A stretch of DNA of 55,907 nucleotides from Sunxiuqinia dokdonensis (lineage in GTDB: Bacteria > Bacteroidota > Bacteroidia > Bacteroidales > Prolixibacteraceae), in assembly GCF_001270965.1 (NCBI RefSeq), contig NZ_LGIA01000173.1, positions 1 through 55,907 on the forward strand, given 5' to 3'. Below are positions 11,598 to 16,417 of this stretch, piece by piece. The number at the start of each line of letters is the position of its first letter. The stretch's first letter is position 1. A program made the translations under genes and the position numbers. The notes beneath the pieces are model-generated. The model saw nothing but the letters and a program-made list of their open reading frames with translations. It did no database searches and had not been told where the DNA came from.

Positions 11598-11996
11598 ATG
11601 GTAAGCTTTCCCCGTCGTTTAGCAGCTTTTTCCCATGTTATAGCAAGCAGTTTCCGCTGTATAGCAGGCTATTCCCATCATTTAGTAAGCTATTACTGTC
11701 GTTTAGCAAGTGATTCCCGTGTTTTAGTAAGCAATCCGCGTATTTTAGCAATCGGTCCGCACATTTCAGCAAGCAATCCGCGCATTTTAGTAAGCTATTC
11801 GCGTATTTTAGCAAGCTATCCGCGCATTTTAGCAAGCAATCCGCGCAATTTAGTAAGCTATCTGCGTATTTTAGCAGGCTATCCGCGTAGCTTAGTAAGC
11901 TATCCGCGTATTTTAGTAAGCAATCCGCGTATTTTAGCAAGCAATCCGCACAATTTTGTAATCGATCCGCGCATTTTAGCAAGCAATCCACGCTTG
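11598..11996. repeat. Array of nineteen 21-bp tandem repeats
   Basis: Nineteen imperfect units of exactly 21 bp with consensus near TTAG(C/T)AAGC(A/T)ATCCGCG(T/C)ATT. The last dozen units are closest to each other and the first six are most diverged. Because 21 is a multiple of three, long frames stay open on both strands and read as heptapeptide repeats: RILASNP-like on plus and leucine-rich SLLKYAD-like on minus. Neither frame has a convincing start, signal or flanking domain, so I call this a repeat array, not a gene. Confidence 0.85.
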
Positions 11997-13962: not shown

Positions 13963-14529
13963 TTAGAAGGATTGGATCAATCGTCCGTCTTTTATCTCGT
14001 ATTTTTCACCGGTTTCGGGGCAAGTCAGCGTTTCATCCAATGTTGCTCCCACACGGCTCACCCAGCCGGTTTGAATGGCCGGAACGCCAACCATCAGAGC
14101 AAAAGGCATTACATTTTTGGTGACGACCGCTCCCGCACCGATTAGGGCATACTGACCAATCTTTACACCACATACGATGGTTGCGTTGGCACCAATCGAA
14201 ACGCCACGTTCAACGCGGGTTTCCTGAAATTGGGTTTTTCGTTCAATAAATGCACGCGGATTGACCACATTGGTAAATACGCAGCTTGGTCCACAAAATA
14301 CATCGTCTTCCAGAATCACCGAATCGTAAACACTGACGTTGTTTTGAATTTTCACACGATTGCCAATGCGGGCCTTTCCCCCCACAAAAACGTTTTGTCC
14401 TAAAACGCAGTCTTGCCCGATTTGAGCTCCGGACATCAGGTGACTGAAATGCCATATTTTGGTGCCGGAGCCAATGTTGGCACCCGCGTCAATGATGGCT
14501 GTTTCATGTGCAAAGTAGGATTTGTCCAT
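13963..14529 (-). CDS. wbpD: WbpD/WlbB-like N-acetyltransferase (left-handed beta-helix)
   Basis: A 188-residue hexapeptide-repeat acyltransferase ([49 protein letters not shown]) with a C-terminal tail ([18 protein letters not shown]) as found in WbpD/WlbB. It would acetylate the 3-amino group made by the aminotransferase, giving the diacetamido uronic acid nucleotide used in O-antigen or other surface glycans. It is 11 bp upstream of the WbpB-like gene. Upstream, the operon is broken by a palindromic repeat and the GxxExxY gene. Confidence 0.9.
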
Positions 14530-14546
14530 TTTTATCGTTTTTTTTC

Positions 14547-14600
14547 ACCGCGGAGTCGCAAAGGCGCAAAGATTAATACTTTCTCTGCGTCTCTGCGGTT
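14547..14600. repeat. Palindromic element, copy 1
   Basis: Imperfect inverted repeat: the left arm starts ACCGCGGAGTCGC and the right arm ends CTCTGCGGT, preceded by a T-tract. It is the first of five related copies in the same orientation and lies directly 3' of the GxxExxY gene. Confidence 0.8.
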
Positions 14601-14607
14601 GTTTCAT

Positions 14608-14994
14608 TTAAAAATTATTGACATATCGCTTAAATCCATCTTTAAGTAACGGAACATTAAAGTTAATTAACAAACCTAGTTTCTTGCCGGTCAGTTTTAA
14701 GTAAGAAATAATTTGTGCCTCGTGGACAGGCAAAATGTAATCAACGGCCTTCAGTTCAATAATGATTTCATTTTCCACCAATAGATCGATTCTGAAATCT
14801 TTGTTCAGGTTTTCGCTTTTATAAAATAACGGAACTGGCACCTGATTGCTTGCTTTAATGCCTCTGATTTGCAGCTCTTTCAAGAGGCAAAGTTCATAAA
14901 CAGACTCCAGCAAACCCGGGCCCATTTCACGATGGACTGTGATCGCGGCATCAAGGATTAGCTTCGAAAAATTATTTAGCTCAGTGTTTGTCAT
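14608..14994 (-). CDS. GxxExxY protein (PD-(D/E)XK nuclease-like)
   Basis: A 128-residue protein with the naming motif G27-x2-E30-x2-Y33 (GPGLLESVYE) and a nuclease-like core: D70 in FRIDLLV and E80-x-K82 in IIIELKA. This D...ExK spacing fits the PD-(D/E)XK superfamily, to which the GxxExxY family is assigned. The cellular role of the family is not established. The gene sits between WbpD- and WbpE-like genes of one pathway and is bracketed by copies 1 and 2 of a palindromic element, with three more copies upstream, so it looks like an inserted cassette. It could act on these repeats, but no sequence evidence proves that. Confidence 0.88.
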   Translation of the reverse strand: MTNTELNNFSKLILDAAITVHREMGPGLLESVYELCLLKELQIRGIKASNQVPVPLFYKSENLNKDFRIDLLVENEIIIELKAVDYILPVHEAQIISYLKLTGKKLGLLINFNVPLLKDGFKRYVNNF

Positions 14995-15011
14995 TCTTTT
15001 TTTTTTTTTTC

Positions 15012-15072
15012 ACCGCGGAGTCGCGACGGTGCAAAGAATAATTATTCTCTGCGTCTCTGCGTCTTTGCGGTT
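15012..15072. repeat. Palindromic element, copy 2
   Basis: About 61 bp with 25-bp imperfect arms (ACCGCGGAGTCGC ... GTCTTTGCGGT) around a short AT-rich centre. A run of 13 T precedes it. It lies just upstream of the GxxExxY start codon. Confidence 0.82.
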
Positions 15073-15082
15073 TCTAATTTTT

Positions 15083-15143
15083 ACCGCGGAGTCGCAAGGG
15101 CGCTAAGTTTAATAATTCTCTGCGTCTCTGTGTCTTTGCGGTT
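15083..15143. repeat. Palindromic element, copy 3
   Basis: Same orientation and length as copy 2, ten bases away. Arms ACCGCGGAGTCGC and GTCTTTGCGGT. Confidence 0.82.
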
Positions 15144-15167
15144 GATATTATTTTCAGTTTATATTTT

Positions 15168-15228
15168 ACCGCAGAGTCGCGAAGGCGCAAAGTTCAATTT
15201 TTCTCTGCGTCTCTGTGTCTTTGCGGTT
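15168..15228. repeat. Palindromic element, copy 4
   Basis: Same orientation; left arm variant ACCGCAGAGTCGC, right arm GTCTTTGCGGT. Lies 24 bp from copy 3. Confidence 0.82.
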
Positions 15229-15238
15229 AATTTCATTT

Positions 15239-16417
15239 TCACTTTCTATTTTCACCGCGGAGTCGCAAGGGCGCTAAGTTTAATACTTTCTCTGCGTCTT
15301 CGCGCCTCTGCGGTTGATCTTCCAGCAATTCAATGAGTTCATGGCATACGAGTTTAATTTCTTCTTCGGTAATAAACCCGTGAATGGGCAGCGAAAGCAC
15401 GGTTTCGGAAAGCAATTCGGCCACTTCAAACCGTTCGTCGCTTAAAACATCATCGCGAAATGCCTCTTGCTTTGGCAGAATTATGGGATAGTGCACGGTC
15501 GTTGGAATTCCCTTTTCGGCCAACTTTTCGCGAACCAGATCACGGTTTTCAATCATGACGGTGAATTGTGCCCAGGAGCTTTCGCGGCCATCAGCCACCT
15601 CGGGTAAAAGCACCTGTCCCTTCAGCAGGTTTGAATAAAGCGTTGCCGCTTGTTGCCGGTTTTTGATTTCCTTTTCAAAGTATTTCAGCTTCACCCGTAA
15701 AATTGCGGCTTGCAGCGTGTCCATCCGCCCGTTAATGCCGATGAGCTTGTGTTGGTATCGTTGCTCCTGTCCATGCGAGCGAAGCATTTTTAGCTTGGCA
15801 GCCCACTCGTCGTTGTTGGCAAAAATAGCACCACCATCGCCGTAGCAGCCCAGCGGTTTGGCTGGAAAAAAGCTGGTGGTGGCTATATCAGTCATCGAGC
15901 AGGAGCGCTGCCCGTGATACGTGGCGCCAAACGATTGTGCGCCATCTTCAATGACCCAAAGCCCATGACTTTTGGCAATCTGGTTGATGGCTTCAAAATC
16001 GGCACATTGCCCGAAAAGCGAAACGGCAATAATACCCTTGGTGCGCGGCGTTATTTTGGCCTCAATTTTCGTGATGTCGATGTTGAAATCGATCGGCGAA
16101 ACATCCACAAAAACCGGGCGCGCTTTGCAAAAACTGACCATTGATGCCGAAGCGATAAAGCTAAATGCCGGGCAAATCACCTCATCGCCTGGCTGCAAGT
16201 CAAGCGTCATGAGCGAGAGTAAAAGGGCATCGGTTCCGGAGCTGCACGCCAGCGCATGTTTTACGCCCGCGAAAGCAGCCAGTTCTTCCTCTAAAAGTTC
16301 AATCTCTTTGCCATGAATAAACGAAGCCGATTCGATCACCGACTGGATGGCTGCATCAATTTCGGGGCGGTAGGCTTGGTATTGCTTGTTAAGGTCGTTA
16401 AATTTCATTTTCAGCAT
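15239..16417 (-). CDS. wbpE: WbpE-like PLP aminotransferase (DegT/DnrJ/EryC1/StrS) with repeat-derived C-terminus
   Basis: A 392-residue sugar aminotransferase. The PLP-binding region is clear (VIEDGAQSFGATYHG) and the Schiff-base lysine is in TTSFFPAKPLGCYGDGG. In this context it would add the 3-amino group to the 3-keto sugar made by the WbpB-like enzyme, normally with glutamate. The natural end of the family is near CHELIELLE; the last roughly 25 residues (PQRREDAEKVLNLAPLRLRG and beyond) are encoded by palindromic element copy 5, so the insertion has replaced the original end. An ATG nine bases inside is an alternative start. Confidence 0.88.
   Translation of the reverse strand: MLKMKFNDLNKQYQAYRPEIDAAIQSVIESASFIHGKEIELLEEELAAFAGVKHALACSSGTDALLLSLMTLDLQPGDEVICPAFSFIASASMVSFCKARPVFVDVSPIDFNIDITKIEAKITPRTKGIIAVSLFGQCADFEAINQIAKSHGLWVIEDGAQSFGATYHGQRSCSMTDIATTSFFPAKPLGCYGDGGAIFANNDEWAAKLKMLRSHGQEQRYQHKLIGINGRMDTLQAAILRVKLKYFEKEIKNRQQAATLYSNLLKGQVLLPEVADGRESSWAQFTVMIENRDLVREKLAEKGIPTTVHYPIILPKQEAFRDDVLSDERFEVAELLSETVLSLPIHGFITEEEIKLVCHELIELLEDQPQRREDAEKVLNLAPLRLRGENRK
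15254..15315. repeat. Palindromic element, copy 5, inside the aminotransferase gene
   Basis: Arms ACCGCGGAGTCGC and GCCTCTGCGGT in the same orientation as the other copies. It overlaps the 3' end of the wbpE-like gene, supplies most of its last codons, and the stop codon lies 15 bp beyond. Confidence 0.82.

Follow-up and report, generated by a model that had tools for sequence, protein, structure and literature searches.

GxxExxY genes and their own palindromic repeats occur, travel and vary together, pointing to an undescribed selfish mobile DNA

Results

The window locus

The window analysed here is a 55,907-nt stretch of Sunxiuqinia dokdonensis, from a contig of a 4.96-Mb genome assembled in 225 contigs and holding eight GxxExxY matches. 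The GxxExxY gene of the window is located in a sugar-biosynthesis gene cluster, between an aminotransferase-like ORF (AM) and an acetyltransferase-like gene (AT). It is accompanied by five imperfect palindromes of about 60 nt, all in a single orientation (plus strand), four upstream of the gene and one downstream. Whole palindromes flank the gene, which does not split any of them.

13963–14529, minus strand: AT, sugar acetyltransferase-like gene (NeuD-type, under cut-off), the downstream border of the insertion
14546–14600: palindrome e1, downstream of the GxxExxY gene (RNA fold z −5.5)
14608–14994, minus strand: GxxExxY gene, 128 aa, predicted PD-(D/E)XK fold, with E30, D70, E80-x-K82 and Q94 intact
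15011–15072: palindrome e2, the closest copy upstream of the GxxExxY gene (z −4.8)
15081–15143: palindrome e3, upstream of the GxxExxY gene (z −2.4)
15166–15228: palindrome e4, upstream of the GxxExxY gene (z −4.3)
15239–16417, minus strand: AM, sugar aminotransferase-like ORF (best NCBIfam match TIGR03588, under cut-off), the upstream border of the insertion
15252–15315: palindrome e5, within the 3′ end of the aminotransferase ORF (z −3.0)

The original prediction had described five palindromes of about 60 bp in one orientation on both sides of the gene, inside a biosynthetic operon, and this description is confirmed. In each palindrome, one arm is built as a short array of degenerate 8–9-nt units, ACCRCRRAG-n-CRCRRAG-n-CRCRRAG, and the opposite arm is its reverse complement. 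The half-site CTCTGCGTCTYTGCGGT, allowing three mismatches or fewer, matches 11 times in the window, always within 14547–15314 (expected 0.24; maximum of 100 shuffles, 2). The other half-site, CACCGCGGAGWCGC, is weaker by this test, with 10 matches of which 8 are at the palindromes (expected 4.78; 2 of 100 shuffles reach 10). Palindrome e5 overlaps AM and extends its 3′ end, so that about 24 final codons (15239–15313) consist of palindrome DNA.

All five copies fold better than dinucleotide shuffles on the mRNA strand (z −5.5 to −2.4), and in four of the five the antisense (plus) strand folds better still. Mismatches across 14546–15315 tend toward G-U wobbles on that strand, antisense to the operon; at other loci this wobble bias is weak and its counts non-independent (1,364 versus 1,176 over loose alignments, hairpins at 37 versus 17 loci). 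Covariation was nil among 12 related aligned palindromes, with 1 of 10 pairs compensatory. Both arms preserve the letters of the unit and pairs are not swapped, which fits recognition by a protein at least as well as an RNA structure.

At 14400–15500, no Rfam family scored above its gathering threshold, and there were weak chance matches to miRNA and snoRNA families only. PADLOC identified no anti-phage defence family, and the best PHROGs match had E 0.19. To the extent that a scan of viral contigs shows, phage cargo is not where the system mainly resides: 58 stretches matched the patterns, and 3 encoded a relative.

The GxxExxY protein

The window protein matches TIGR04256 (E 1.6e-43, 147.7 bits against a cut-off of 35) and PF13366, PDDEXK_3 (E 1e-41, 142.4 bits against a cut-off of 22). 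TIGR04256 is its sole TIGR match, which sets it apart from TIGR02436, the four-helix-bundle ORFs of 23S rRNA intervening sequences. Across 51 aligned relatives, G25, G27, L29, E30, Y33, E40, D70, E80, K82, Q94 and N111 are invariant. A PD-(D/E)XK-like protein with D70, E80 and K82 intact had been predicted, and both the family models and this invariance bear it out.

An AlphaFold2 model (pLDDT 95.8) had as its top Foldseek neighbours Cas4 (4ic1), lambda exonuclease (1avq) and Hjc (2wiw), at probabilities of 0.98–0.99. Cas4 SSO0001 (4ic1) matched at E 7.6e-4, and the 120-aa A. fulgidus Hjc (2wiw) at probability 0.99 with TM 0.44 and rmsd 4.5; tRNA-splicing endonucleases and others followed further down. 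The neighbours are PD-(D/E)XK nucleases, although E was ≤0.001 in 1 of 378 matches and TM-scores were modest (0.41–0.50 by query). A PDB sequence search gave nothing significant (T7 endonuclease I, E 0.67). The window protein thus has a predicted PD-(D/E)XK fold together with the D...E-x-K active-site motif.

Inverted arms at GxxExxY genes

We collected 80 named GxxExxY loci, sorted into nine taxon groups by record title; two with short flanks were dropped from inverted-repeat scoring, leaving 78. An across-gene inverted repeat scoring at least 40 was found at 40 of the 78, versus 53 of 1,542 pseudo-gene positions within those loci and, with flanks swapped, 111 of 1,543. Median scores were 40 at GxxExxY genes and 24 in both controls (Mann-Whitney p 5e-22). 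In the window's family, across-gene inverted repeats occur at 17 of 34 GxxExxY loci versus 1 of 340 controls, and at 20 of 37 family loci the repeat exceeds every one of 60 shuffles of the flanks at that locus. Among 192 distinct GxxExxY genes, z was above 2.5 in 122 of the 187 with sufficient flank.

An array of 8–9-nt units lies within 250 nt of 66 of the 80 named genes (on both sides of 40), including both archaeal loci, versus 49 of 1,542 far windows (3.2%). The units are oriented, sense copies prevailing upstream (93 versus 26) and antisense copies downstream (106 versus 42). In a draw from the phylum, unit arrays were near 23 of 28 GxxExxY genes, whereas RAYT genes had none nearby (0 of 20) and TIGR02436 genes few (2 of 30). 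The enrichment of palindromes that the original prediction expected at GxxExxY genes elsewhere is thus present in both collections.

Several of the seven other GxxExxY genes in the window's own genome also lie between inverted arms, with different arm sequences: ACCACAAAG (L001), ACCACGGAGT (L002), CACATAG (L006), and TGATT or GGGAT types (L005, L007). A pattern search of this genome with strict ends returned palindromes at the window gene only; the other unit types were revealed by reading the flanks. At L001, L002 and L035 the gene interrupts a single palindrome, leaving an arm on each side, whereas elsewhere it lies between whole palindromes. Within the window's family, the arms of L020 (genome G009) are shared by L126 of Tangfeifania diversioriginum.

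TIGR02436 four-helix-bundle genes (L162–L191, with L181 in the window's own genome) likewise lie between inverted arrays, of other 7–8-nt units (AGCTnnnA, AGTnnnTA and GTGATCAG). Their across-gene score has a median of 39 versus 22 in controls, and reaches at least 40 in 13 of 29 versus 3 of 290. These genes do not encode nucleases, so the architecture does not need a GxxExxY nuclease and the design is a wider one.

Clade-matched units and joint travel

The type of array depends on the clade of the gene. Of 150 GPGLLE-type genes, 109 have RCRRAG arrays and 3 have CAGAT arrays; among 13 ADFxC-type genes the respective numbers are 0 and 10, against backgrounds of 6% for RCRRAG and 2% for CAGAT. 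Mutual information between clade and arm was 0.762, and label shuffles within genomes gave 0.514 or less (0 of 2,000 reached the observed value); the clade and motif classes behind these figures were defined after some loci had been viewed, and the pairwise arm-similarity tests below are independent of those classes. With a strict pattern for the second clade's unit, 4 of 24 gathered genes matched, the gathered set including another clade.

Arm similarity was compared between genes in different contexts, that is, in different genomes and with no matching ORF 120–700 nt away at E 1e-5. Its median was 38–39 below 55% protein identity, 43 at 55–65% and 58.5–65.5 above 65%, and in multi-copy genomes the arms were closer to the nearest relative elsewhere than to own-genome paralogs in 62 of 71 cases, the pairs in both comparisons being non-independent. 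L002 and L035 illustrate the trend: they lie in different genera beside different neighbours, their proteins are 85% identical, and their arms are nearly the same (arm score 159). Arm sequence therefore tracks the relatedness of the nuclease over the host genome, which indicates that the gene and its palindromes move together as one. Among same-genome, non-orthologous GxxExxY pairs, none exceeded 75% identity, so that duplication of the gene appears to be rare or old.

Dependence of the pattern on the gene across genomes

We searched 295 phylum genomes at least 90% complete (295 of 296, the window genome left out) for the palindrome pattern ACCRCRRAGNNCRCRRAG. Family searches of this sample for GxxExxY, RAYT and TIGR02436 scored at most 14 or 15 candidates per genome, although the counts for each genome are complete, and three genomes with GxxExxY matches under cut-off (G283, G314, G397) were counted as without the gene. 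Abundance of the palindrome in genomes without any GxxExxY gene had been named as an outcome that would speak against the original prediction; the pattern averages 5.73 copies per genome in the 148 with the gene versus 0.24 in the 147 without it. Genus g12 of the window's family, described below, is an exception. The pattern occurs in 96 of 148 and 23 of 147 of these genomes, respectively, the latter with at most 5 copies, and the same pattern read backwards averages 0.05 and 0.18.

This dependence persists when stratified by family (Mantel-Haenszel odds ratio 6.3, p 2e-5) and among genomes of 4–9 Mb (49 of 73 with the gene versus 2 of 20 without). In a logistic model for the pattern, GxxExxY had an odds ratio of 10.3 (p 4e-11), whereas RAYT (PF01797; odds ratio 1.16, p 0.67), TIGR02436 (p 0.21) and genome size (p 0.35) were not significant. 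TIGR02436 was accordingly rejected as a driver of the RCRRAG pattern, and RAYT as its mover.

In a class sample of 118 genomes, the spacing-8 pattern was found in 39 of 78 with GxxExxY versus 4 of 40 without, and among those new to the analysis in 33 of 69 versus 3 of 32 (p 1e-4). Within the window's family (59 genomes) the association was not significant (20 of 47 versus 3 of 12, p 0.33). All three gene-less positives there come from genus g12, with 3, 1 and 11 pattern matches in three genomes without a detected GxxExxY gene; leaving this genus out post hoc gives 19 of 46 versus 0 of 9 (p 0.02). The g12 repeats form their own tandem clusters. One g12 genome, G043 (L192–L208), has two GxxExxY genes and 79 pattern matches, many of them tandem-clustered, a related repeat that has multiplied on its own.

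The gene and the single pattern searched are not coextensive: 52 of the 148 gene-bearing genomes lack this pattern, and solo palindromes can far exceed genes (31 pattern matches and 1 gene match in G499; 37 and 1 in G323). At 30 family pattern loci, a GxxExxY gene lay within the 1.5-kb flanks at 4 (three places) and a TIGR02436 gene at 1; others were gene-less palindromes between ordinary genes. Most copies of the pattern are thus far from any GxxExxY gene, a point against the original interpretation.

Site history at the AM-AT junction

AT is present in 118 of 140 family genomes. We examined 50 junction loci, comprising the 30 best matches and 20 picked by hand (five of them for a previously placed GxxExxY gene), which document states and not prevalence: GxxExxY lies upstream of AT in 16 (in one as two fragments), downstream in 2 and internally deleted in 1 (L220), and 31 are gene-free. 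Comparison with strains lacking the insertion, as the original prediction had proposed, yielded both empty and palindrome-only junctions. At L214 the AM stop is followed by four bases and the AT start. L213, from the same genus as L214, has one palindrome and no gene, with an AT 88% identical to that of the window, and L223, from another genus, likewise has a palindrome without the gene. In L213 as in the window, C-terminal codons of AM come from the palindrome. A single junction thus displays four states: empty, with a palindrome alone, with a deleted gene, and occupied. Comparing the empty L214 with the solo L213, the one junction inspected, revealed no recognisable target-site duplication.

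After L218 and L244 had been merged with identical named records, the junction copies resolved on the protein tree into six clades, all pure (6 parsimony changes, compared with 12.8 for shuffles), which fall into at least two distant groups. This suggests that some copies were inherited or carried along with the operon, and that others were acquired independently. At L003, a second, internally deleted gene copy lies in tandem about 290–650 nt downstream, with its own upstream arm.

Discussion

GxxExxY genes and their own repeat type occur, travel and vary together in the genomes examined, which points to an undescribed selfish mobile DNA and supports the earlier interpretation linking GxxExxY to these palindromes. 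In our judgement, GxxExxY genes and the palindromes with matching units probably constitute one two-part selfish element, in which a dedicated nuclease is predicted to cut the palindrome. The palindrome, alone or together with the gene, would be the mobile or copied piece. The GxxExxY protein would be its dedicated PD-(D/E)XK nuclease, recognising the repeated unit, the hairpin or cruciform of the palindrome, or both, and cutting there. Host recombination and repair might then copy or delete the element. Loss of the gene, by internal deletion or by recombination between flanking palindromes, would leave solo palindromes dependent on a nuclease encoded elsewhere in the genome; internally deleted copies, palindrome-only alleles and direct flanking repeats would be the routes to such gene-less copies.

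Holliday-junction resolvases, Cas4 and lambda exonuclease share the predicted fold and motif set with the GxxExxY protein, and a palindrome, once extruded, forms a four-way junction. A predicted nuclease with this fold and of the size of Hjc, adjoining sequence that could extrude in this way, suggests structure-guided cutting, with specificity from the sequence of the unit. The parallel is qualified by sequence similarity that is not significant and by the modest TM-scores. Points against the two-part element are that no target-site duplication was recognised, that gene duplication is rare or old, that most pattern copies are remote from a GxxExxY gene, that 52 of 148 gene-bearing genomes lack the pattern searched, that genus g12 is an exception, that TIGR02436 genes have a similar architecture and that covariation is nil.

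Unlikely, though deserving weight, is a homing-type passenger, in which the palindromes are older and a homing-endonuclease-like GxxExxY cuts an intact palindrome and is copied in, the occupied copy being spared. Single palindromes interrupted by the gene at L001, L002 and L035 speak for it, as do palindrome-only alleles at the same junction (L213, L223) and an arm type that follows the nuclease clade. Pre-existing palindromes should, however, also occur without the gene, yet the 147 gene-less genomes are near background (0.24 versus 0.18 for the backwards control), and the window gene lies between whole palindromes with none split.

We regard as improbable a host-tolerated transcript element, whose palindromes would shield the operon mRNA (stability, processing) while the gene is a cargo ORF made harmless by hairpins, like 23S rRNA intervening sequences. 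Insertion between co-oriented operon genes, the folding scores of the window palindromes (z −5.5 to −2.4) and the architecture common to TIGR02436 genes are in keeping with it. It does not predict clade-matched units, or solo palindromes that depend on GxxExxY but not on TIGR02436, and both the nil covariation and the better antisense folding in four of five window copies speak against it.

Co-occurrence through lifestyle, with gene and palindromes functionally untied and both common in larger, free-living genomes rich in mobile DNA, is very improbable: unadjusted counts do rise with genome size and with other mobile genes (Spearman 0.33–0.42), but the effect holds up once size, RAYT, TIGR02436 and family are allowed for, and both adjacency and the match between clade and unit are properties of the locus, not of the genome as a whole. 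We give almost no credence to the idea that the palindromes are standard REPs mobilised by a RAYT (Y1/HUH) transposase, with GxxExxY incidental, because PF01797, although matched in 210 of 296 genomes, is uninformative (odds ratio 1.16, p 0.67), none of 20 RAYT genes has unit arrays beside it, and the window palindromes, although extragenic like REPs, end without GTAG or CGTC.

The best reading of the two-part element is as an analogue of the REP/RAYT system built on an unrelated nuclease. REPs or REPINs and their RAYTs (TnpA-REP) likewise combine many short extragenic palindromes with one dedicated, flanked enzyme gene, enzyme groups match their own repeats, and the repeats are abundant only with the dedicated enzyme gene, here apparently GxxExxY instead of RAYT, genus g12 excepted. 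Co-evolution is reported for TnpA-REP (PMC8266576). The REP/RAYT parallel drawn in the original prediction accordingly holds as an analogy but does not extend to the enzyme, which is unrelated, nor to the RAYT genes, which predict nothing here. The window gene belongs to PF13366, a predicted PD-(D/E)XK nuclease as opposed to an HUH/Y1 transposase. The palindrome consists of about 50–80 nt of 8–9-nt tandem units, and RAYT presence is irrelevant to the pattern.

CGTC-type REPs are reported as extragenic palindromes, also in Bacteroidetes, without a dedicated transposase, and are described with stems of 8–9 bp, loops of 4–5 nt and one end carrying a CGTC tag (PMC3733652). By comparison, the arms here are longer arrays; on direct reading, none of the five window copies has a GTAG or CGTC tag at its ends, and CGTC occurs inside the paired arm only. 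In 23S rRNA intervening sequences, an ORF lies within the loop of a stem and the insertion is treated as selfish (PMC4990558). TIGR02436 (S23) genes in the family resemble the present system in lying between inverted unit arrays, and differ in an unrelated protein, in other units (RCRRAG in 2 of 30) and in having no effect on the RCRRAG pattern. MITEs offer a likeness in their internally deleted and gene-less copies that rely on a gene elsewhere in the genome; the differences from MITEs and transposons are that there is no transposase here and that no target-site duplication was recognised (one junction).

The literature searched, to which subscription papers and preprints were outside the scope, contained no report of a link between GxxExxY and palindromes. 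The papers found under the name GxxExxY mention it in passing; the name PDDEXK_3 and the repeat strings returned nothing, and PF13366 appears in a further paper. In REP literature retrieved with Bacteroidetes or Flavobacterium terms, titles and the beginnings of abstracts contained nothing on GxxExxY palindromes.

The GxxExxY family is named for its motif only, and a defined DNA substrate would give it a testable function, for which the clade-matched units supply ready cognate and non-cognate pairs. If the two-part element is real, an unrelated enzyme joins the short list of extragenic-palindrome systems with a dedicated protein, which would explain one class of intergenic hairpin repeats in many environmental genomes and would bear on REPs reported without a known enzyme (PMC3733652). 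More tentatively, as a reading that we doubt slightly more than we credit, this may be a new class of mobile DNA in bacteria and archaea, its cruciform-forming palindromes, with units specific to each nuclease clade, being spread by a Cas4/Hjc-like nuclease, and TIGR02436 may represent a second, parallel line of ORF-in-palindrome elements.

Two further repeats were observed in this genome. At L209 (C222:17200–20700), direct repeats of about 130 nt each begin with CACCGCAGAGGCGCAAAGGCGCAGGGTGG, in a region with no GxxExxY gene. In the window itself, 11668–11989 holds a 21-nt tandem repeat of about 13.7 copies, with a 63-nt higher-order unit, which is open on both strands.
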